Source: Deltaproteobacteria bacterium
GTDB taxonomy: Bacteria > Desulfobacterota_B > Binatia > UBA9968
Assembly: GCA_005879255.1 (NCBI GenBank)
Contig: VBKY01000198.1
Span: forward strand, 1 to 11,013
DNA length: 11,013 bases
Direction of reading: 5' to 3'
This document shows positions 1,840 through 10,467 of the stretch, in pieces. Within the stretch, counting starts at the first letter, position 1. Each line of letters opens with the position of its first letter. Below the pieces are notes generated by a model. It was not told the origin of the DNA. It searched no databases and saw only the letters and a list, made by a program, of their open reading frames with translations. The position numbers and the translations under genes are program-made.

Positions 1840-3435
1840 ATGAATCCCTCTCTGATAGAAATCTGCGGAGATGGCCTGACGATCGAGAAGGTCGCTTCGG
1901 TAGCCCGCCAAAATATCCGCGTCGAACTCACTTCAAACATCGACGTACGAAATAAAATTTCCGCGTCTCGGCAGTTGTTAGAAAAAAAACTAACGGCCGG
2001 AGAGATCATCTATGGGGTGAACACGGGATTCGGCGGCAACGTGCGCTTTCTCATTCCCCAAAATGATCTGTCCTTCCATCAAGAAAATCTCCTCCGATGC
2101 CTCACCTGCGGTGTTGGCCAGCCGCTCATCGAGGACGCCGTCCGCGCAGCCATGCTCCTGAGAGCGAACGCTCTAGCCAAAGGGCTTTCTGGCGTAAGAG
2201 TGGAGATCATCGAACGAATGCTCGATCTCCTGAACCACGGGATTACGCCGGTCGTGCCCCGTTACGGTTCCGTGGGAGCCAGCGGGGATTTAATTCCCTC
2301 CGCCTATATCGGCCGCGTCTTGCTGGGCGAAGGAGAAGTCCTCTATCAGGGCAAAAAGCTCGCCGCCGCCGAAGCGCTGCAAAACGCCAAGGTGCAGCGC
2401 TCCAAACTCATGGCGAAAGAAGGTTTGGCGCTGATCAACGGCACGACCGTGATGACCGGCATCGCTGCTCTGGTGATTCATGACGGCGCCCATCTCGCCC
2501 CCCTTGTGCTCGCCTGCGCGAGCTTAGCCGTCGAGGCGCTAAAGGCCACCGATGACCCGTTTTCAGAAGTTATCCATCGGGCCAAGAATCACCCAGGGCA
2601 GATGGAAGCGGCGGAGATCTGCCGCAAGCTGCTGCGCGACAGCCGTTATATCCCCAATCTCGATGAGCTTCGGGCCAAGATCGGCGAGACTCGCAGCGCG
2701 GCCGAGGGAAAGACGATCCGCTCCGAAGAAGCGATCCAGACTCCCTATTCATTACGCTGTGCGCCTCAGGGAATCGGCCCCGTGCTCGATGCTTTGCGCG
2801 CGCATCGCCTCGTTTTGGAGCGCGAGATCAACTCGGTCAATGACAATCCGCTAATCGACCCGCTAGAGGGCCGTGTTTACCACACAGGCAATTTCTACGG
2901 CGGCCATGTTGCGCGCGCGCTCGACAGTTGGAAAATCGATCTGGCGACCCTGGCCAATTGGCTTCACGCGATCATGGCCATGCTCGTCGATGATAGATTC
3001 AGCAACGGGCTTCCTCCGAATCTATCGCGCAACCCGGGAGTGTCGTCGGGCTTTAAAGGCATGCAGCTGTGTCTGACGAGTCTGGTTTGCGCGATGCGTC
3101 ACTTGGCCAACCCGAGCATGATACATACCTTGCCGACCGAACAATACAATCAGGACATGATCAGTCTTGGCACGCATGCGGCGCTCACGGCGATGGATAT
3201 GACAGCAATGGCGCAAGATGCCGCCGCGATCTCACTGCTGGCCACTTGCCAGGCCATAGACCTGCGGGGCGGCGGCAACAACTTGGGAATCGGTAATCGA
3301 GCCATCTTTGAGACTGTTAGAAAGGAGGTGCCCATTTTAGAGAAAGACAGACCGCTGGACGTTGATATCGCGCGGATCTCCGAATTGATTCGAATAAGGC
3401 TGATCCCCATTCCCGAATTGGAGGGCAGTTTATGA
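1840..3435 (+). CDS. MIO-type aromatic amino acid ammonia-lyase (PAL/TAL-like)
   Basis: A member of the histidine/phenylalanine/tyrosine ammonia-lyase family, which eliminates ammonia from an aromatic amino acid to give an aryl-acrylate through the MIO electrophile. From ATG 1840 the protein is 531 aa. Visible features are the catalytic Tyr58 in YGVNTGFG, the MIO-forming Ala147-Ser148-Gly149 in GSVGASGDL, the NDNPLID segment, GNFYGGHVA, and TEQYNQDMISLG near the C-terminal part of the active site. The selectivity pair is Cys87-Leu88, where histidine lyases have Ser-His, tyrosine lyases His-Leu and bacterial PALs Phe-Leu. With the PAL-like EQxNQD segment and no hut genes nearby, histidine is an unlikely substrate. 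An in-frame GTG at 1819 could add 7 residues but would sit at the predicted transcript start; a G-rich stretch at about 1824-1830 suits ATG 1840. The stop overlaps the ligase gene by 4 nt. Confidence 0.93.
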   Translation: MNPSLIEICGDGLTIEKVASVARQNIRVELTSNIDVRNKISASRQLLEKKLTAGEIIYGVNTGFGGNVRFLIPQNDLSFHQENLLRCLTCGVGQPLIEDAVRAAMLLRANALAKGLSGVRVEIIERMLDLLNHGITPVVPRYGSVGASGDLIPSAYIGRVLLGEGEVLYQGKKLAAAEALQNAKVQRSKLMAKEGLALINGTTVMTGIAALVIHDGAHLAPLVLACASLAVEALKATDDPFSEVIHRAKNHPGQMEAAEICRKLLRDSRYIPNLDELRAKIGETRSAAEGKTIRSEEAIQTPYSLRCAPQGIGPVLDALRAHRLVLEREINSVNDNPLIDPLEGRVYHTGNFYGGHVARALDSWKIDLATLANWLHAIMAMLVDDRFSNGLPPNLSRNPGVSSGFKGMQLCLTSLVCAMRHLANPSMIHTLPTEQYNQDMISLGTHAALTAMDMTAMAQDAAAISLLATCQAIDLRGGGNNLGIGNRAIFETVRKEVPILEKDRPLDVDIARISELIRIRLIPIPELEGSL

Positions 3436-4973
3436 ACATCTTTAGTGCCTTGGAACGGAGCAAAAATCGTTACCCCGATAAGGAGGCCATCGTATTTGGC
3501 AGCGATTCTATCACGTACGCGCAGCTTTATGAGCAAGCCTATCGCTTGAGTTCAGCCCTGAAGGAAATCGCGAATTTGCACAAAGGCGAACGCGTGGCGC
3601 TCTTTCTCCCCAACCGGCCTGAGTTCGTGATTTCTTACTATGCCGTGGTGGGCCTCGGCGCGATTGCGGTCTCGCTGAATGTCATGCTCAAGCGTGACGA
3701 AGTGAAATTCATTCTCAATGACTCCGAAGCAAAGATACTGGTCACCTCCAGCCGGCTCCTTGATCAAGTGCCGGATGTCAACGAGACTCCCTCACTCAAA
3801 AAAATTCTCTGCATCGATGCCGCCGAGCGTGCCGGCGTCATTGGAATCAATGGCCTATTACCCCTTGCCGCAGCGTCCGGCCCAGCGGCCGAGGTAGCGC
3901 AAGATGAAGGTGCGGCCATCCTTTACACATCGGGGACCACGGGCAAACCGAAAGGCGCTTTGCTTTCCCACGGAAATCTCAGATCCAACGTCGCGGCGAC
4001 TGTTCTTCATACGCAAATGTCTTCCAGTGACAGGCTCATCTGCTACCTGCCGCTTTTTCACTGCTTCGGTCAAAATTTTATCATGAATGCATCAGTCAAC
4101 TGTGGCGCGACCTTGGTACTTCATGAGCGATTCCAGCCCGATGAGATTCTCGATTCTCTAAAGTCGAACCGAGTCTCGGTCTTTTTTGGCGTCCCGCCGG
4201 TTTATCTGCGCTTGCTCGCGGCGCCAAACATCGAACAACACTTTGGCCAAGTCCGCTATTGCTTCACTGCGGCGGCGCCGATGCCGGTAACCGTGGCCCG
4301 TCAATGGAGAGAACAGGTTGGGCAAATTATCTATGAAGGCTACGGCCTCACAGAAACCTCTCCTTTCGCCAGTTATAACCACGACGTTCGCTATCGGGAG
4401 GGCAGCGTCGGGACTCCTATCGAAAATGTGGAGATGAAGGTCGTGGATCCCGAAGGACACGCGCTGCCGCCGGACGAGCAAGGCGAGATCGCCATCAAAG
4501 GACCCAACGTGATGTTGGGCTATTTTCGGCGGCCCGAGGAAACAGCGGAAGTCATCCGGGACGGCTGGTTTCTAACCGGTGACATTGGAAAGGTGGACAG
4601 CGACGGTTACTTCTATCTTGTCGACCGGGCCAAAGATATGATCAATTTATCCGGTTTTAAAGTCTGGCCGCGCGAAGTGGAAGAGGTCTTGCTGCAACAC
4701 CCGAGTCTCAGTGAGGTTGGCGTAGTCGGAATCGCAGATCCCGCTTCCGGTGAGGCCGTCAAGGCTTTCGTCGTCTTGAAACAAGGCCAGTCACTTAGCG
4801 AACAAGAGGTGATCGATTATGCTCGCGTGCGCATGGCAGTTTACAAAGCGCCGCGATTTGTCGAGTTTATCGATGCGCTACCGCGGAATCCCGCCGGAAA
4901 GGTGCTCAAGCGGGAGCTCAGAGCACGCGCAAAAGAGCCGCGCAATGGCGCGTCCTCGTTAAAAGTAGCCTAA
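3432..4973 (+). CDS. AMP-forming acyl/aryl-CoA ligase (4-coumarate/fatty acid-CoA ligase family)
   Basis: An ANL-superfamily adenylating enzyme that makes an acyl-AMP and then the CoA thioester. At 513 aa it is of normal length. It shows the ATP-binding loop YTSGTTGKPKG (residues 165-175), the YGLTET motif (304-309) and the TGD motif of the ribose-binding region (Asp384). The hinge and C-terminal domain segment VDRAKDMINLSGFKVWP follows, and the catalytic lysine is in NPAGKV (Lys490). Its ATG overlaps the ammonia-lyase stop (ATGA), so the two are translationally coupled. The natural inference is that it activates the lyase product (cinnamate-, coumarate- or related aryl-acrylate) to its CoA ester. 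Sequence alone does not exclude a fatty acid substrate, since FadD-like enzymes share every motif seen here. Confidence 0.93.
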   Translation: MNIFSALERSKNRYPDKEAIVFGSDSITYAQLYEQAYRLSSALKEIANLHKGERVALFLPNRPEFVISYYAVVGLGAIAVSLNVMLKRDEVKFILNDSEAKILVTSSRLLDQVPDVNETPSLKKILCIDAAERAGVIGINGLLPLAAASGPAAEVAQDEGAAILYTSGTTGKPKGALLSHGNLRSNVAATVLHTQMSSSDRLICYLPLFHCFGQNFIMNASVNCGATLVLHERFQPDEILDSLKSNRVSVFFGVPPVYLRLLAAPNIEQHFGQVRYCFTAAAPMPVTVARQWREQVGQIIYEGYGLTETSPFASYNHDVRYREGSVGTPIENVEMKVVDPEGHALPPDEQGEIAIKGPNVMLGYFRRPEETAEVIRDGWFLTGDIGKVDSDGYFYLVDRAKDMINLSGFKVWPREVEEVLLQHPSLSEVGVVGIADPASGEAVKAFVVLKQGQSLSEQEVIDYARVRMAVYKAPRFVEFIDALPRNPAGKVLKRELRARAKEPRNGASSLKVA

Positions 4974-4985
4974 GACGGGCCCATC

Positions 4986-6149
4986 ATGTCGGAACGGGTC
5001 GCCATTATTGGCATCGGCTTTACCCCACTCCAGCCGACGACGCCACGGTGTTCGTTCAAAGAACTCGTTTTCGAAGCCGCTCAGAGAGCCTACGCTGACG
5101 CCGGGATTCGCTTTGACGAGATCGACTCCTTTGTCACCTGTGCCGAAGACCTCAACGAAGGCATATCGATTTTCGACGAGTACACGCCCGACCAACTCGG
5201 CGCCGTGCAAAAGCCGATGCACACGCTGACGCAGGATGGGCTTCACGGTATCGCGGATGCGCTCATGCAAATTCGCGCCGGGATCGCGGAGACTGTCGTC
5301 GCCGAGGTCCATAGCAAAGCCTCCAACATCTTGACTCCCGAATGGCTGCTCGACTATGCGTTGGACCCGGTTTACAACCGGCCATTAGATTTTTCTCCGC
5401 ACGCCATAGCCGGTTTGGAAATGAATCGGTTTCTTAGTCAAACCGGCATCACTGCGTCACACTGCGCCGAAGTGGTGACCAAGAACCGGCTCAACGCCCG
5501 ACATAATCCGTTAGCGGCCTATCCTCTGGAGACGAATCTAACAACCGTCGAATCATCGCCTTACCTCTCCTATCCGCTGCGTAAAGGAGAGCTAGCCAAG
5601 ACCGCGGACGGCTGCGTGGTTATCGTCTTGGCAAACGAAGCAAAGGCAAGCAAAGCTCGCAGCCAACCCGCGTGGATTTTAGGTACGGGCTTCGCCAGTG
5701 ACAGTCCGACCATAGAATCGCGCCATTGGAGTAATGCTGAATATGCCCGACTCGCAGCTCAAGCGGCCTACCATCAAGCGGGTATTAAGGCGCCGCGTAA
5801 CATCGATTTTTTTGAAGTCGATGACACCTATGCCTACAAGGAACTGCAACATTTGATCGCACTCGGGCTCTACGACGCGCCCGTTAAGGCCGGCCGAGCA
5901 ATTGAGACGGGCGAAACCCGGCCAGATGGTAGAACGCCCGTTAACGTCTCTGGTGGTGCGTTGGGTATGGGTCTCCCGCTGGAAGCGAGTGGGCTGTACC
6001 GCATAGTCGAGCTGGTGCTGCAGCTACGCGGCCAGGCCGGCGAGCGCCAGTTGTCGCGCGCGAAAATCGGACTGGCGCAATCATGGCGCGGCATACCCAG
6101 TACGAGTGGCGCGGTGGTCATACTTGGATCGGAACCTCCTCATGTCTAA
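4986..6149 (+). CDS. Thiolase-like protein without canonical catalytic residues (SCP-x/Ltp2-type), copy 1
   Basis: A 387-aa thiolase-fold protein of the SCP-2/lipid-transfer-type thiolase group, starting SERVAIIGIGFTPL. By-eye comparison with thiolase motifs shows that the nucleophile position in the CxSGL block reads TQDGL (Thr82 for Cys). The GHP motif reads GLP (Leu330 for His), within NVSGGALGMGLP. The C-terminal Cys block reads SWRGIP (Ser366-Trp367). Claisen/thiolytic chemistry by the textbook mechanism is therefore unlikely. A Tyr-rich segment, EVDDTYAYKEL (Tyr282, Tyr284), lies where SCP-type enzymes have an active-site loop. Ltp2-type retro-aldolases of this fold are known to use tyrosines instead. 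It starts 12 nt after the ligase stop and overlaps its paralogue by 8 nt, so it probably forms a complex with that paralogue and the DUF35 proteins. It could be a structural rather than a catalytic subunit. Confidence 0.85.
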   Translation: MSERVAIIGIGFTPLQPTTPRCSFKELVFEAAQRAYADAGIRFDEIDSFVTCAEDLNEGISIFDEYTPDQLGAVQKPMHTLTQDGLHGIADALMQIRAGIAETVVAEVHSKASNILTPEWLLDYALDPVYNRPLDFSPHAIAGLEMNRFLSQTGITASHCAEVVTKNRLNARHNPLAAYPLETNLTTVESSPYLSYPLRKGELAKTADGCVVIVLANEAKASKARSQPAWILGTGFASDSPTIESRHWSNAEYARLAAQAAYHQAGIKAPRNIDFFEVDDTYAYKELQHLIALGLYDAPVKAGRAIETGETRPDGRTPVNVSGGALGMGLPLEASGLYRIVELVLQLRGQAGERQLSRAKIGLAQSWRGIPSTSGAVVILGSEPPHV

Positions 6150-7317
6150 GCGTAGAGTGGCCGTCATCGGCGCTGGCATGACTAAGTTCATGCACCGCGC
6201 ACTTGAAACTCCGAAGGAGCTTGCGTGGCTCGCGGCCCGATCCGCTCTCGGTTCAAGTCAACTGAAGCTCAAACAGATCGATTGCGTGGTTCTCGGTAGC
6301 GCGCCAGACGCTTTCGACGGCGTGCACATGAAAAGTGAGTATCTCTCCGACGGTTGCGGTGGATGGCGAAAACCGTTTCTTCGATGTTACGTCGGCGGCG
6401 GCACCGGTGTGTACGCAGTCGCTCAAGCCTGGTTCCAGGTCGCCTCGGGAATGTTCGACACCGCGCTTGTAGTCTGCGAAGAAAAGATGTCGACTTGTCA
6501 GCCCCATCCTCAGGCAGCGTTTCTGACGATCTTTGATCCCATCACCGAACAGCCCTTAAAACCAAATCTGCTTTGGATCTTTGCTTTGGAACAAACCCGT
6601 TATATGGAAACCTACGGCATTGCCGTTGAAGAGATCGCCCGGGTCTCGGTGAAAAACAAACGCAACGCTCTGAACCATCCCGCTGCTCAGCTCGGCGCGG
6701 AGCTTACCGTGGAAGACGTTCTGGCTTCGGAAATCATGGCATGGCCGGTCCATCGCCTAATGGTGAGTCCGACCAGCGATGGCGCGGCGGCCATCGTCAT
6801 CGCCGCGGAGGAAGTCGCCCGGCGCGTCGCCGAGAAGCCGATCTGGATTCAAGGCGTCGGTTGGTGTTTGGATAGCGCCTATTGGACCAACCGCGACCTT
6901 GCCTATCCCGAGTATGTCGAGAAGGCTGCCTGGATGGCCTACCGGATGGCCGGCGTCAAAGAGCCCCGAAAGGAAATCAACATCGCCGAGCCCTACGATC
7001 CTTTCGCCTACAAGGAACTACACCACCTCGAAGGGTTGCAACTCGCGCCGAAAGGCCAAGCGCCGAAGCTCTTGGCTGACGGCGTGTTCGAACGCGACGG
7101 TGATTTGCCGGTGACCCCTTCGGGAGGTCTGCTCGGAGTCGGCAACCCCATCGCGGCCGCTGGCATGATGAAAATCTGCGAGCTGTTCTGGCAACTCCGT
7201 GCCGAAGCGGGAAAACGTCAGGTGCCGGGCAAACCCGAGCGCGGCGTCGCACAGGCTTGGGGAGATCTGATGCAAGTTGGCACGGTCGTCGTTATGGGGA
7301 CGAAAAAACCGGAATAA
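6142..7317 (+). CDS. Thiolase-like protein without canonical catalytic residues (SCP-x/Ltp2-type), copy 2
   Basis: A second thiolase-fold protein, 391 aa from ATG 6142 (MSKRRVAVIGAGMTKF, the normal beginning of the fold). An in-frame ATG at 6106 lies deep inside the preceding gene and would add only a non-homologous leader. The nucleophile block reads GGTGV (Gly86 where Cys is expected; Cys82 is four residues earlier). The GHP motif reads GNP (Asn335 for His), and the C-terminal Cys block reads AWGDL around Trp373. The segment EPYDPFAYKELHHLEGL (Tyr285, Tyr290) matches copy 1 and the active-site loop of SCP-type enzymes, so this copy may be the catalytic one if the complex is an aldolase of the Ltp2 kind. 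The pair is clearly divergent and not a recent duplication. The substrate is inferred from the neighbours to be an aryl-acyl-CoA. Confidence 0.85.
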   Translation: MSKRRVAVIGAGMTKFMHRALETPKELAWLAARSALGSSQLKLKQIDCVVLGSAPDAFDGVHMKSEYLSDGCGGWRKPFLRCYVGGGTGVYAVAQAWFQVASGMFDTALVVCEEKMSTCQPHPQAAFLTIFDPITEQPLKPNLLWIFALEQTRYMETYGIAVEEIARVSVKNKRNALNHPAAQLGAELTVEDVLASEIMAWPVHRLMVSPTSDGAAAIVIAAEEVARRVAEKPIWIQGVGWCLDSAYWTNRDLAYPEYVEKAAWMAYRMAGVKEPRKEINIAEPYDPFAYKELHHLEGLQLAPKGQAPKLLADGVFERDGDLPVTPSGGLLGVGNPIAAAGMMKICELFWQLRAEAGKRQVPGKPERGVAQAWGDLMQVGTVVVMGTKKPE

Positions 7318-7321
7318 AATC

Positions 7322-7375
7322 GTTCAATGTTCAACGTTCAATGTCCGTGTCTCTCTCCAACCTTGAACTTTGAAC
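7322..7375. repeat. Inverted array of 7-bp GTTCAAY units inside the operon
   Basis: Right after the second thiolase-like gene come three head-to-tail heptamers, GTTCAAT, GTTCAAC and GTTCAAT (7322-7342). After a 20-nt pyrimidine-rich spacer come two copies in the opposite orientation, TTGAAC and TTTGAAC (7363-7375). The two arms can pair into a hairpin. This lies in the only gap of note in the operon, between the thiolase-like and DUF35 genes. It could act as a partial terminator or an mRNA-stability element that sets the ratio of the two halves. It resembles, in 7-bp rather than 9-bp form, the palindrome at 10799-10870. Confidence 0.75.
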
Positions 7376-7402
7376 CTCAACAGAGGGATGTCAGACGAAG
7401 CT

Positions 7403-7921
7403 ATGACTGACAAATTTCCCGGCACGCCGCTCGACAAACGCACATTGAAAGGCGGCAAGATTTTCATGACTTCCTATATGCCGAAACTGCGCTACCGTTG
7501 GGATACCGGAGAAGCCATAGGTCGCTATCTCGAAGAACTCAGACACGGGCGGCTGATCGCTCGTCGCTGCGATGTCTGTCAACGCATTATGATTCCGCCA
7601 CGCATGTTTTGCGAACGCTGCTTTCGCCCGACCGATGAATGGGTTTACGTGAAAGACACCGGCAGGATTCTCACCTTTTCTCTTTGCTACGTCACCTGGA
7701 ATGTACGGCGCTTAAAGCAACCGCAGATCCCCGCGGTCATCGAAATTGCTGGCGCTTCGCCCGGCATGGGCATCCTGCATCTGGTCAAGAAGGTGCCATC
7801 GAAGCAAGTACGGGTTGGAATGCCGGTGCGTGCGGTGTGGCGACCGCCTTCACAGCGCCGAGGGAGCGTAACTGATATCGCCTATTGGGAACCTGACAGA
7901 CAAACCAAGGAGCCTAAATGA
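7403..7921 (+). CDS. DUF35 zinc-ribbon/OB-fold protein, copy 1
   Basis: A small acyl-CoA-binding accessory protein of the DUF35 family, about 172 aa. The core starts at the YRWDTGEAIGRYLEEL helix. A rubredoxin-like zinc ribbon follows with Cys56-x2-Cys59-x10-Cys70-x2-Cys73 (CDVC and CERC), and then an OB-fold beginning at DTGRILTFS. In known systems such proteins bind a thiolase-fold partner: ChsH2 with Ltp2, BbsA with BbsB, PhlB with PhlC. The start is uncertain. ATG 7403 has a purine stretch (AGAGGG, 7382-7387) 15 nt upstream, ATG 7388 follows that stretch directly, and ATG 7466 would still keep the whole core. The stop overlaps the next DUF35 gene by 4 nt. The spacing suggests one DUF35 protein per thiolase-like protein. 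Confidence 0.88.
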   Translation: MTDKFPGTPLDKRTLKGGKIFMTSYMPKLRYRWDTGEAIGRYLEELRHGRLIARRCDVCQRIMIPPRMFCERCFRPTDEWVYVKDTGRILTFSLCYVTWNVRRLKQPQIPAVIEIAGASPGMGILHLVKKVPSKQVRVGMPVRAVWRPPSQRRGSVTDIAYWEPDRQTKEPK

Positions 7922-8388
7922 CGCCATCAGCGCGAAACGACGATCATATCGCGTGGCCAGGAGCAATCCCGCTGACATCTTTGTATACAGCGGGTCTCGG
8001 CGGCCACATTTTTTTTGACGCGCTCAAGCGGCACGGCAAGCTAGTCGGCACTCGCTGTCGTGCTTGCAAGCAGGTTTATCTGCCGGCGCGCTGCTTCTGC
8101 GAGCGCTGTTTTGGCGCACTCACCGAGGAGGTGGAAGTCAAACCAACCGGCCGGCTCGTGAGTTACACGATTTGTCAAGTTGACCGTGATCGCAGACCGC
8201 TACGGCGCCCCCGAGCTTTGGCGCTCGTGCGATTAGACGGTGCCACCACGGTGCTGCTCCACTATCTGCTCGATGTTACTGAACCCGACCAGATCAGTGT
8301 CGGTCGCCGCGTCGAAGCGATCATCAAACCAAAGAGGCGGCGCATCGGATCCATTCTCGACATCGAAGGTTTTCGCATTGTCAAATGA
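7918..8388 (+). CDS. DUF35 zinc-ribbon/OB-fold protein, copy 2
   Basis: A second DUF35 protein, 156 aa, whose ATG overlaps the stop of copy 1 (ATGA). The order of parts is the same: an amphipathic N-terminal helix (FFDALKRHGKLVGTRC), a zinc ribbon with Cys47-x2-Cys50-x10-Cys61-x2-Cys64 (CRAC and CERC), then an OB-fold starting at PTGRLVSYTI. The four-Cys spacing is identical to copy 1, but the rest is only moderately similar, so the two are divergent paralogues. The likely role is to bind the CoA ester and close the active site of a thiolase-like partner, as established for ChsH2 in the steroid aldolase. Which copy pairs with which thiolase-like protein cannot be read from sequence. Confidence 0.88.
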   Translation: MTPSARNDDHIAWPGAIPLTSLYTAGLGGHIFFDALKRHGKLVGTRCRACKQVYLPARCFCERCFGALTEEVEVKPTGRLVSYTICQVDRDRRPLRRPRALALVRLDGATTVLLHYLLDVTEPDQISVGRRVEAIIKPKRRRIGSILDIEGFRIVK

Positions 8389-8430: not shown

Positions 8431-8754
8431 ATGGAAGGCGAAAGGGATCGTTTCGGCGAATTCATGAAGCTGCTCGAGCACGCCAAAGAGGATATCTACT
8501 TCGCGGCGAGGGATCAGGAGCTGCTCGCGCAACTCAAAGAACGGCTTACAAAGCTCGATAAACCAGAAGGCGATACATTTCGGCTGTATTGCCCAAAGTG
8601 CCACGGCGTCTTGGAAAGCTACATGTTCATGAAACTTCCCCTTGAGCGCTGCCAGGTCTGCGGCGGCGTTTGGTTCGATAAGGAGGAGATCGAAGCGATC
8701 GCGGGGCTTGTCGGCCGGAGTCCCCTGTTCTTCCCGATGCCGTGGATTCCGTGA
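8431..8754 (+). CDS. TFIIB-type zinc-finger domain protein
   Basis: A 107-aa protein with a strong Shine-Dalgarno (AAGGAGGG, just before 8425) upstream of its ATG. Residues 1-45 are highly charged and probably helical or a short coiled coil (KEDIYFAARDQELLAQLKER). The second half is a zinc ribbon of the zf-TFIIB family: CPKC (Cys54, Cys57), then CQVC (Cys74, Cys77) followed by the family signature GGVWFDKEEIE. No membrane segment or signal peptide is seen. Such bacterial proteins are poorly characterised. It lies 42 nt after the second DUF35 gene in the same direction and so may belong to the operon, but nothing ties it chemically to the pathway. The predicted fold is confident; the function is unknown. 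Confidence 0.82.
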   Translation: MEGERDRFGEFMKLLEHAKEDIYFAARDQELLAQLKERLTKLDKPEGDTFRLYCPKCHGVLESYMFMKLPLERCQVCGGVWFDKEEIEAIAGLVGRSPLFFPMPWIP

Positions 8755-8842: not shown

Positions 8843-9211
8843 GTGCATTACAAAGCGGAACCGAGCGTTCGGGACATCATGATGAGCTCACCGATCAGCC
8901 TGCAAAGGGACAAAAAACTGAGTCTAGCGGAGGACGTGATGGCAGGTGGACGGATCCGGCATGTGCCGATTCTAGACGGAGAACATCTGGTCGGCGTGTT
9001 GAGCCAAGCGGACCTCTTCCATTCCGCATTCGCCAAGGCTATGCACCTTCGTCCCCGCGAACAACGAGACCTTGTAGATTCTATCAAGATCGAGGATGTC
9101 ATGAGCAAAAATGTAATCTCGGTTCCCGTCGATACCTCGATCCGGGCCGCCGCGCGCTTGATGATGGAAAAGAAGCTTGGCTGCCTGCCCGTAGTTCAGG
9201 AAAACGGCTAG
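8843..9211 (+). CDS. CBS-domain pair protein, cut short by a frameshift
   Basis: A small two-CBS-domain protein, a module that usually senses adenine nucleotides or metabolites. The GTG start at 8843 has a strong AGGAGG (8832-8837) 5 nt upstream. The first CBS motif covers about residues 8-60 (VRDIMMSSPISL to LVGVLSQADLF). The second starts at about residue 80 (IEDVMSKNVISVPVDTSIRAAARLMMEKKLGCLPVVQENG) and stops at TAG 9209-9211, before its last strand and helix. The missing end, LVGLVTKSDMLRYLAE, is present in the next frame from 9208, so one lost base near 9206-9208 explains the break. As written the product is 122 aa against an expected ~152 aa and should be unstable. A sequencing error is as likely as a real mutation. 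Confidence 0.8.
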   Translation: MHYKAEPSVRDIMMSSPISLQRDKKLSLAEDVMAGGRIRHVPILDGEHLVGVLSQADLFHSAFAKAMHLRPREQRDLVDSIKIEDVMSKNVISVPVDTSIRAAARLMMEKKLGCLPVVQENG

Positions 9212-9369: not shown

Positions 9370-10467
9370 TCACGCAATCCGGTGTGACTTTGTTTCATTC
9401 CGATGCTTCGTTAAGTAGGGGATAAACGGCGTGCCGCCGGTCCCTATGGAGTTGGGATTGCGGGCATCTCCTCGGCTTTGCTTGTTAATATAGCTGTGCG
9501 CGTATTCCAGATGGGTGGAACGGAAACGGCAAACCCCGTCGATGGCGGCATTGTAGGCATCGCGCAGCGTCGGACGCGCTCTCCTGTGACGCAGGACATA
9601 CTGGCGCACTGAAGGTCTTGCCTCCACCGCTTCGATAAATGCCCTGTGTCTGGGGGGCATGTAGTCACGCATTTCGTTTAGGTAACTGCGCAACATATCT
9701 TCAGCGTGCGTCAGACCAAGTACGGCGTCGAAGGCGGGAATAATCGAACTCTGCGCGCCGGTTTCGCCACGGAACTTTTGTGGCTCACCCGCGTAGTCCT
9801 CGACTCCTTCGTAGACTACCCCTGACGGAATGTTCGGCTGATTGGCCCAGCCATGGATGTAGGGCCTTACACGATGGAAATAAATGTAAGGGTCGCAGCG
9901 CTCCGGCATGCGCAAAAGGATTTTGTTCATTGCCTCGACCGCTCTGGCAATAGTTGCCAAGGAGTCGGCAACTCGCTCCGGCTCCTCATCTACGACTGCC
10001 CGCTGCGCTGCAACAATGGCCTCAAGCGCCGCACCCGCGGCGGCTTCGATAGCAACATGAATGAGCACAAACCACTCTTCATCCTGACCGCCGAGAAAAT
10101 TCTGCAGCAGGACAATATTGCCAACCTCGATCGGATTATGGCTATCGACTCTTCTCCAGTTGTCGAGCACGTAGGAGGCGTAGGAGAGCACCGGCGGGCG
10201 CCCGAGCATCCGCGCCACCTGATGCCACGGCACGGCAAGGGATGATGGAAGCAAAGTAACCGTTTCCTTTTCTCCCCAGACATAGGCATGGCCAACGAAA
10301 GAAAGAATCACCATGGCTTTCTTTCTTTCCCGATCATCACCAAGTCTCGCTGTGTCAAGCAGCGGCAGCTGTCTAATAAAACTTCGAATCCTACCGGTCA
10401 GCATCAGCTTCGGCAACTCCCTGCCTATTTCTTCCCAACGTACTTCAAGCGGTCGGTCACACGCCAC
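9370..10467 (-). CDS. Indoleamine 2,3-dioxygenase, lacking its N-terminal ~28 residues
   Basis: A heme dioxygenase that opens the pyrrole ring of tryptophan to give N-formylkynurenine. Family blocks seen in order are LPLLDTARL, AYVWG, PPVLSYASYVLDNWRR, EEWFVLIHVAIEAAAG, VYEGVEDYAGEPQKFRGETGAQSS, RDYMPPRHRAFIEAVEARPSV, the proximal heme ligand in RSTHLEYAHSYI (His319) and the C-terminal GTGGT loop. Against human IDO1, Trp11 corresponds to Trp39 and His319 to His346, so about 28 residues are missing. Upstream of Trp11 the homology stops, the GTG at 10467 is weak, and an in-frame TGA lies 10-12 nt further out. On the other strand this stretch reads as cysteine synthase. The rest is intact, with no internal stop. 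It may be a recent pseudogene or one side of an inversion. It is convergent with the CBS gene. Confidence 0.88.
   Translation of the reverse strand: MACDRPLEVRWEEIGRELPKLMLTGRIRSFIRQLPLLDTARLGDDRERKKAMVILSFVGHAYVWGEKETVTLLPSSLAVPWHQVARMLGRPPVLSYASYVLDNWRRVDSHNPIEVGNIVLLQNFLGGQDEEWFVLIHVAIEAAAGAALEAIVAAQRAVVDEEPERVADSLATIARAVEAMNKILLRMPERCDPYIYFHRVRPYIHGWANQPNIPSGVVYEGVEDYAGEPQKFRGETGAQSSIIPAFDAVLGLTHAEDMLRSYLNEMRDYMPPRHRAFIEAVEARPSVRQYVLRHRRARPTLRDAYNAAIDGVCRFRSTHLEYAHSYINKQSRGDARNPNSIGTGGTPFIPYLTKHRNETKSHRIA

Follow-up and report, generated by a model that had tools for sequence, protein, structure and literature searches.

We analyzed an 11,013-nucleotide (nt) stretch of DNA from a Deltaproteobacteria bacterium (Binatia, UBA9968; assembly GCA_005879255.1, contig VBKY01000198.1), hereafter the window, which carries six genes in one direction: an aromatic amino acid ammonia-lyase gene, an acyl-coenzyme A (CoA) ligase gene, and a four-gene cassette for two thiolase-like proteins (T1 and T2) and two DUF35 proteins (D35a and D35b). 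The reading that we favor is that the cassette encodes a thiolase-fold retro-aldolase, to which the lyase and the ligase would supply an aromatic CoA ester. A first-pass annotation had described a compact operon in which genes overlap by 4, 8, and 4 nt and one pair lies 12 nt apart, and the gene coordinates agree, the successive spacings being −4, +12, −8, +52 (or +70), and −4 nt. Pfam analysis of the six proteins revealed one Lyase_aromatic protein, one AMP-binding ligase, two thiolase-like proteins, and two zf-ChsH2/OB_ChsH2_C proteins.

1840..3435, + strand: 4-methylideneimidazole-5-one (MIO)-type aromatic amino acid ammonia-lyase, phenylalanine-ammonia-lyase-like, 531 amino acids (Pfam PF00221, 537 bits)
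3432..4973, + strand: ANL-superfamily acyl-CoA ligase, 513 amino acids (AMP-binding, 333 bits; AMP-binding_C)
4986..6149, + strand: T1, thiolase-like subunit 1, 387 amino acids, PRK06066-like (Thiolase_C_1; PRK06066, 420 bits, cut-off 516)
6142..7317, + strand: T2, thiolase-like subunit 2, 391 amino acids, PRK06065, predicted aldolase subunit (PRK06065, 649 bits, cut-off 455)
7388..7921 (alternative start 7370), + strand: D35a, DUF35 protein with zinc ribbon and OB fold (zf-ChsH2, OB_ChsH2_C; start inferred)
7918..8388, + strand: D35b, second DUF35 protein (zf-ChsH2, OB_ChsH2_C)

The start of D35a is more likely the ATG at 7388, with AGAGGG just 5' of it, than position 7370, and the gap between T2 and D35a is then 70 nt.

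We aligned 59 T2 and 65 T1 sequences with three thiolases. Four codons of the window correspond to the following sites:

6397..6399, + strand: T2 Gly86, at the position of the nucleophilic Cys (Gly in 59 of 59 T2 sequences, Cys in all three thiolases)
6994..6996, + strand: T2 Tyr285 of the YDPF motif, predicted catalytic base (Tyr in 59 of 59 T2 sequences, His in all three thiolases)
7144..7146, + strand: T2 Asn335, at the GHP histidine position (Asn in all 58 T2 sequences with a letter there)
5820..5822, + strand: T1 Asp279, at the His position of the thiolase HDxF motif (Asp in 61 of 65 T1 sequences)

T1 has DDTY where T2 has YDPF. In the window, Thr occupies its nucleophile position (Cys in one of the 65 sequences) and Leu its GHP-His position (His in 21 of 65). 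The AlphaFold2 model of T1 (predicted local distance difference test score, pLDDT, 85.7) has a thiolase fold across residues 1–384, and that of T2 reached a pLDDT of 82.5; the best fold matches are archaeal thiolases, that of the 3-hydroxy-3-methylglutaryl-CoA (HMG-CoA) synthase complex first, with PhlC-like acyltransferases next. Of the features of an SCP2-type thiolase, the window T1 and T2 therefore have the fold and lack the nucleophilic Cys, the HDxF His, and the GHP His, which argues against both thiolysis and Cys-dependent C-acyl transfer. The first-pass annotation had left three options for the complex, and two of them lose ground here. We rejected the BbsB/BbsA-type thiolase, since the catalytic Cys and two His are missing in T1 and T2, and the PhlC/PhlB-type C-acyltransferase, since T2 lacks a Cys at the position of the thiolase nucleophile (PhlC itself being outside the alignment). 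Judged by these residues, the cassette is neither a normal thiolase nor a Cys-dependent acyltransferase. The likeness to benzoylsuccinyl-CoA thiolase (BbsAB) lies in a thiolase fold and a DUF35 partner acting on an aryl CoA ester; unlike T1 and T2, however, BbsB retains the Cys and both His. Similarly, the PhlABC and CsATase C-acyltransferases are multicomponent thiolase-fold complexes with a DUF35 protein. We take PhlC to have a catalytic Cys and both of these systems to be Cys-dependent; a C88S variant structure is among the fold matches listed. In the DUF35 proteins, each of the four zinc-ribbon Cys of D35a is present in 53 or 54 of 54 sequences and those of D35b in 41–46 of 48. Both proteins match ChsH2 (6ok1 chain B), although ChsH2 is not the best match.

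The third option was a retro-aldolase of the Ltp2/ChsH2 kind. A study on steroid aldolases gives the motifs YDCY for Sal (bile acids) and YDHF for Ltp2 (cholesterol), with Tyr as the base, and describes Gly at the nucleophile site of Sal and a DUF35 domain with which both Sal and Ltp2 operate (PMC12329534). T2 resembles these enzymes in its thiolase fold, in Tyr-Asp instead of His-Asp, and in Gly at the nucleophile place (stated there for Sal); this is a comparison by motif, Sal and Ltp2 being outside the residue alignment. The profile match of T2 to Ltp2 (6ok1) ends at T2 residue 333 and chain residue 342, with which the pairing of Tyr285 with Tyr294 and of Asn335 with Tyr344 is consistent, given no gap and matching numbering. 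Sal was recovered as a similarity match at E = 1.3e-19. The second catalytic residue (Tyr344 in Ltp2, Cys304 in Sal) is not kept, T2 having Asn335 (extrapolated from the end of the match) and Pro287 (by its place in the motif), respectively. Because this residue is not conserved, we do not file T2 in the Ltp2 or Sal family; the proposal is that it would work like them. As Ltp2 has ChsH2 and Sal has Shy, T2 has putative DUF35 partners, encoded by adjacent genes. In contrast to both systems, the cassette encodes two thiolase-like subunits that differ from each other and two DUF35 proteins as separate chains, with no MaoC domain fused to DUF35, the fold of T2 is nearer to archaeal thiolase, and its substrate is presumably aryl.

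To see how far the cassette is distributed, a species-genome collection of 84,980 genomes was scanned with two conserved T1 peptides, which recovers only relatives keeping one of the two, and 67 loci were obtained. Of the fetched loci, 42 extend 2.6 kb or more beyond T1 (25 shorter loci were left out of this count), and 41 of them have T1, T2, D35a, and D35b complete, on one strand, and in this order; in the remaining locus, T2 is split into two frames. The order is kept more often than chance would allow. Record titles of these loci include Chloroflexota, Deltaproteobacteria, Acidobacteria, Elusimicrobia, Planctomycetes, Zixibacteria, Archaeoglobus relatives, and others, and the cassette is thus an old unit, present in both Bacteria and Archaea and far more widespread than the six-gene set. 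Among plasmid records, 445 contained matches, none of which reached 60% identity. Among the matches listed, the close relatives of T1 that bear a name are mostly called "acetyl-CoA C-acetyltransferase". We also considered a link to acetone degradation in sulfate reducers, which was rejected: the genes named for it (a 3-hydroxyacyl-CoA dehydrogenase, a thiamine enzyme, and a single DUF35 gene) do not correspond to the cassette (PMC8084838).

T1 was detected in 25 of 59 Archaeoglobi genomes (E <= 1e-70), and neighborhoods were analyzed in 22 distinct genomes (20 fetched plus loci L061 and L066; L058 and L135 are one contig). An acyl-CoA dehydrogenase gene lies directly 3' of D35b on the same strand in all 19 neighborhoods with room for it (three end too soon), followed by a hydratase gene in 9 of the 19. 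CoA-transferase subunits are encoded directly upstream of the cassette in 7 of the 22, one of which is truncated where the contig ends. Because of the relatedness of these genomes, the neighbor counts are not independent. In the bacterial locus L025, the genes for a hydratase, an acyl-CoA dehydrogenase, two B12-mutase subunits, T1, T2, D35a, and D35b lie on one strand, and these gene kinds are those of steroid side-chain shortening by retro-aldol cleavage. The acyl-CoA dehydrogenase and hydratase of the archaeal relatives would be the preceding steps, as in the Ltp2 and Sal systems. A hydratase gene near homologous loci, for which the first-pass annotation had proposed to look, is found both in Archaeoglobi and in L025, and the retro-aldolase option gains from these neighbors together with the Tyr-Asp motif and Gly of T2.

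Other neighborhoods differ. Subunits of B12-dependent acyl-CoA mutases are encoded near the cassette in several phyla (L008, at 15309–20567, L011, L012, L021, L025, L040, L047, L063, and L066), accompanied by MeaB and an acyl-CoA dehydrogenase in L008 and by carboxylase subunits in L063; methylmalonyl-CoA-mutase-type genes (clusters C6 and C9) occur near it in further loci, partly on the other strand. Propionyl-CoA may be handled near the cassette. In many Chloroflexota loci, the sampled neighbors are housekeeping genes (NusB, TatC, FabD, and FabG) and carry little information. A gene for a CitE-like C–C lyase was observed in eight Chloroflexota-type loci (L014, L015, L019, L020, L033, L042, L045, and L060), directly 5' of T1 in six of them, and eight partly different loci (L015, L016, L019, L020, L024, L034, L038, and L045) encode, on the opposite strand, an aldehyde ferredoxin oxidoreductase; the identification of each cluster comes from a family search with one of its members. 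For Ferroglobus placidus, use of cinnamic acid and of benzaldehyde is reported (PMC3236036). The cassette is present in another Ferroglobus record (L061), and a link between the two is suggestive only.

The lyase contains the MIO triad Ala-Ser-Gly at residues 147–149 and a TEQYNQD motif, and all MIO active-site motifs examined are present. In an alignment of 121 rows (the window protein and the best 120 of 1028 homologs), GASGDL is found in 120 rows and TEQYNQD in 119. One further site was located:

2098..2103, + strand: selectivity-pair codons Cys87-Leu88 of the lyase (aligned with Phe-Leu of 2nyn, an entry named phenylalanine/histidine ammonia-lyase)

At this position, which we take to be the substrate-selectivity pair that sets lyase specificity, the 121 rows contain FL (78), FM (11), CL (9), SL (9), YM (8), AL (5), and one gap. 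In the window lyase and its 22 nearest listed homologs (23 rows), the usual Phe is replaced by Cys, Ser, or Ala. Because a small residue stands in place of Phe/Tyr, the substrate of the window lyase may be bulkier than phenylalanine. The protein resembles bacterial and plant phenylalanine ammonia-lyases in the MIO triad, the surrounding active-site motifs, and the EQxNQD motif; it differs in having Cys-Leu instead of Phe-Leu and, in a search with NCBIfam models, it scored above no cut-off (360 bits against 519 for TIGR01226, a model of 680 positions; 429 against 539 and 450 against 524 for the histidine ammonia-lyase models). A histidine-specific lyase would have undermined the first-pass annotation. 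Such an enzyme was rejected on these cut-offs and on motifs, as the window lyase has TEQYNQD and Cys-Leu where the histidine-ammonia-lyase-like protein of L006 has TSG-NEDF and a Ser-His pair. By its motifs, the lyase is of the phenylalanine rather than the histidine ammonia-lyase kind.

The top PDB matches of the ligase are entries named fatty-acyl-CoA synthase and feruloyl-CoA synthetase, with 319 bits each, followed at small margins by 4-coumarate-CoA ligases (288–291 bits) and malonyl-CoA synthetase (286 bits). These matches are compatible with an aryl-acrylate as substrate and are not proof of it.

An operon-type lyase lies upstream of the ligase and T1 in 6 of the 67 loci (L001, L003, L004, L005, L008, and L010), all of which fall among the ten with T1 identity of 67–75%; L001 and L004 have almost the same lyase, so these two loci are hardly independent. 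L002 starts within the ligase region. L006, L007, and L009 have enough room, yet neither an operon-type lyase nor a ligase was found beside T1. In L003 and L005, both genes are placed between a 5'–3' exonuclease gene and T1, and the same place is empty in L009. We also surveyed 148 genomes of the class to which genome G002 belongs. T1 of this clade is present in seven of them (E <= 1e-120). The lyase clade (65–82% identity) occurs in five, where it always shares a contig with T1 and lies just upstream of the ligase and T1. A lyase match at E <= 1e-60 was found in 19 of the 148 genomes, 14 of which have only lyases of 35–40% identity. The two genomes with T1 and without this lyase are metagenome assemblies and possibly incomplete: G132 (L002), whose contig starts within the ligase region, has no lyase match at E <= 1e-60, and G005 (L009) has none at E <= 0.001 in the whole assembly. 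The lyase and ligase are thus a local addition to an older cassette, and the conservation that the first-pass annotation expected of the six-gene order holds for all five genomes with the lyase clade, within that one clade only.

On the 5' side of the operon, the + strand carries the end of a 2-oxoacid dehydrogenase acyltransferase gene and a dihydrolipoyl dehydrogenase gene, separated from the lyase by 122 nt. On the 3' side, a TFIIB-like zinc-ribbon gene (8431–8754, + strand, after a gap of 42 nt) and a CBS-domain gene (8843–9211, + strand, after 88 nt) are followed by an indoleamine 2,3-dioxygenase (IDO) family gene on the − strand (9370–10467). Of the lyase-bearing loci, the window and L008 extend far enough to show this region, and both have an IDO-family gene just 3' in the opposite orientation (14079–15296, −, in L008); none was found within the stretch examined of L006, which lacks the lyase operon. 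This neighbor hints at a locus for aromatic amino acid breakdown. The gap between T2 and D35a contains one more element:

7322..7375, no strand assigned: inverted heptamer-repeat element, dispersed and not operon-specific

Its arms (7322–7338 and 7359–7375) are 17 nt long, 88% complementary, and composed of the heptamer (GTTCAAN)n. The first-pass annotation had correctly placed an inverted repeat in the only larger gap; the arms are longer than the 7 bp it gave. Counting overlapping matches, the (GTTCAAN)n pattern occurs 51 and 56 times in genomes G002 and G006 and 2 to 8 times in four other related genomes, and the reversed control pattern has no match in any of the six. Since the heptamer is dispersed in related genomes, the repeat is no special feature of the operon, and we rejected it as an operon signal; it is a candidate mobile or regulatory hairpin of the lineage.

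Considering these data, we give somewhat better than even chances to a catabolic route in which a phenylalanine-like aryl-alanine is converted through a cinnamoyl-CoA-type ester to an aromatic aldehyde and acetyl-CoA. The MIO lyase, by its family and motifs, would take off ammonia to give an aryl-acrylate such as cinnamate, and the ANL ligase, by its family, would form the CoA ester. An enoyl-CoA hydratase encoded outside the operon would then add water in trans to give a 3-hydroxy-3-arylpropanoyl-CoA. One archaeal hydratase used as query has 4 to 12 matches (E <= 1e-30) in each of six related genomes, and the earlier statement that such a route needs a hydratase from elsewhere stands. The operon has no crotonase. 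T1, T2, and the two DUF35 proteins would form one hetero-oligomer in which T2, judged by its residues, partners, and neighbors, would be the retro-aldolase. Tyr285 would remove the proton from the 3-hydroxyl, the C2–C3 bond would break, and the aromatic aldehyde (benzaldehyde if the substrate is phenylalanine) and acetyl-CoA would be released. The DUF35 proteins may assist in CoA holding and site closure, and T1 may be a diverged partner for assembly, substrate binding, or proton donation. Elsewhere, the same four-gene machine would be supplied by different modules, in Archaeoglobi by a CoA-transferase, an acyl-CoA dehydrogenase, and a hydratase; where the archaeal operons have a dehydrogenase acting before the hydration, this operon would have the lyase and ligase. 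BoxB, considered as a downstream enzyme, had matches in 9 of 9 genomes, none above the cut-off, which is uninformative. The known vanillin route, from feruloyl-CoA synthetase to feruloyl-CoA hydratase/lyase, follows the same logic from a cinnamate-type acid: CoA ester, hydration, and retro-aldol cleavage to an aromatic aldehyde and acetyl-CoA. In that route, one crotonase-fold enzyme carries out both last steps, whereas a thiolase-fold complex would perform the cleavage here. The earlier proposal of a route from an aromatic amino acid to an aryl-acrylyl-CoA handled by a two-by-two thiolase-fold/DUF35 complex fits the findings and is partly supported overall, its chemistry being inferred.

Other explanations were weighed against this route. 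The lyase and ligase might feed cinnamoyl-CoA to ordinary beta-oxidation or another route, the cassette being merely a neighbor that serves a separate acyl-CoA pathway, perhaps as a retro-aldolase for a different substrate. The absence of an adjacent lyase of this clade from 61 of the 67 loci (some cut short), including the close relatives L006, L007, and L009, speaks for such a separation, as does L009, which lacks both genes at the exonuclease site in an assembly without any lyase match; on the other hand, the 4-nt overlap and the 12-nt gap tie lyase, ligase, and T1 together, and the three genes remain side by side in all five genomes with the lyase clade. We regard this explanation as unlikely. 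It is less probable still that the cassette performs another acyl-CoA reaction, such as aldol addition or acyl transfer, and that the operon serves to make rather than to break down an aromatic compound. Aldol reactions are reversible, and the fold matches to archaeal thiolases and PhlC-like acyltransferases would suit such a role, but the nucleophilic Cys is found in none of the 59 T2 and one of the 65 T1 sequences, against acyl-enzyme chemistry, and the archaeal neighbors (acyl-CoA dehydrogenase, hydratase, and CoA-transferase) look catabolic.

The chances are slimmest for the MIO enzyme being an aminomutase that forms a beta-aryl-beta-alanine for activation by the ligase. The best PDB match of the lyase is AdmH (301 bits), which we take to be an aminomutase, and NCBIfam aminomutase models match below their cut-offs; however, the phenylalanine/histidine ammonia-lyase entry is nearly equal (295 bits), and most named proteins among the 120 listed homologs are called phenylalanine ammonia-lyase or aromatic amino acid (ammonia-)lyase, names that are presumably automatic.

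Thiolase-fold/DUF35 retro-aldolases are known for steroids; what appears to be new is the combination of two unlike thiolase-like subunits with two separate DUF35 proteins, and the link to an ammonia-lyase. Among the matches listed in our search, which covered mainly open-access papers, no paper on this gene set or its ammonia-lyase link was found. A broader proposal, which we put forward tentatively and at somewhat less than even chances, is that the cassette represents a new class of thiolase-fold retro-aldolase in Archaeoglobi, Chloroflexota, Binatia, and others. It would serve an unrecognized type of acyl-CoA shortening by dehydrogenation, hydration, and retro-aldol cleavage, with an aldehyde or a ketone left over rather than the product of thiolysis, and the window would be its branch for amino acids, with an ammonia-lyase as the source. 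Taken furthest, the proposal is that T1 would supply the hydration site, and cinnamoyl-CoA would be converted straight to benzaldehyde and acetyl-CoA in one complex. The T1 clade lacks the thiolase catalytic residues, and if the retro-aldolase reading is right, the label "acetyl-CoA C-acetyltransferase" would mislead in several phyla. Retro-aldol degradation of acyl-CoA would then exist well beyond steroid catabolism, and uncultured Binatia-like bacteria would have their own way of turning an aromatic amino acid into the aldehyde. As a biocatalyst, the complex would be a candidate for forming or cleaving C–C bonds, with versions from thermophilic archaea at hand.

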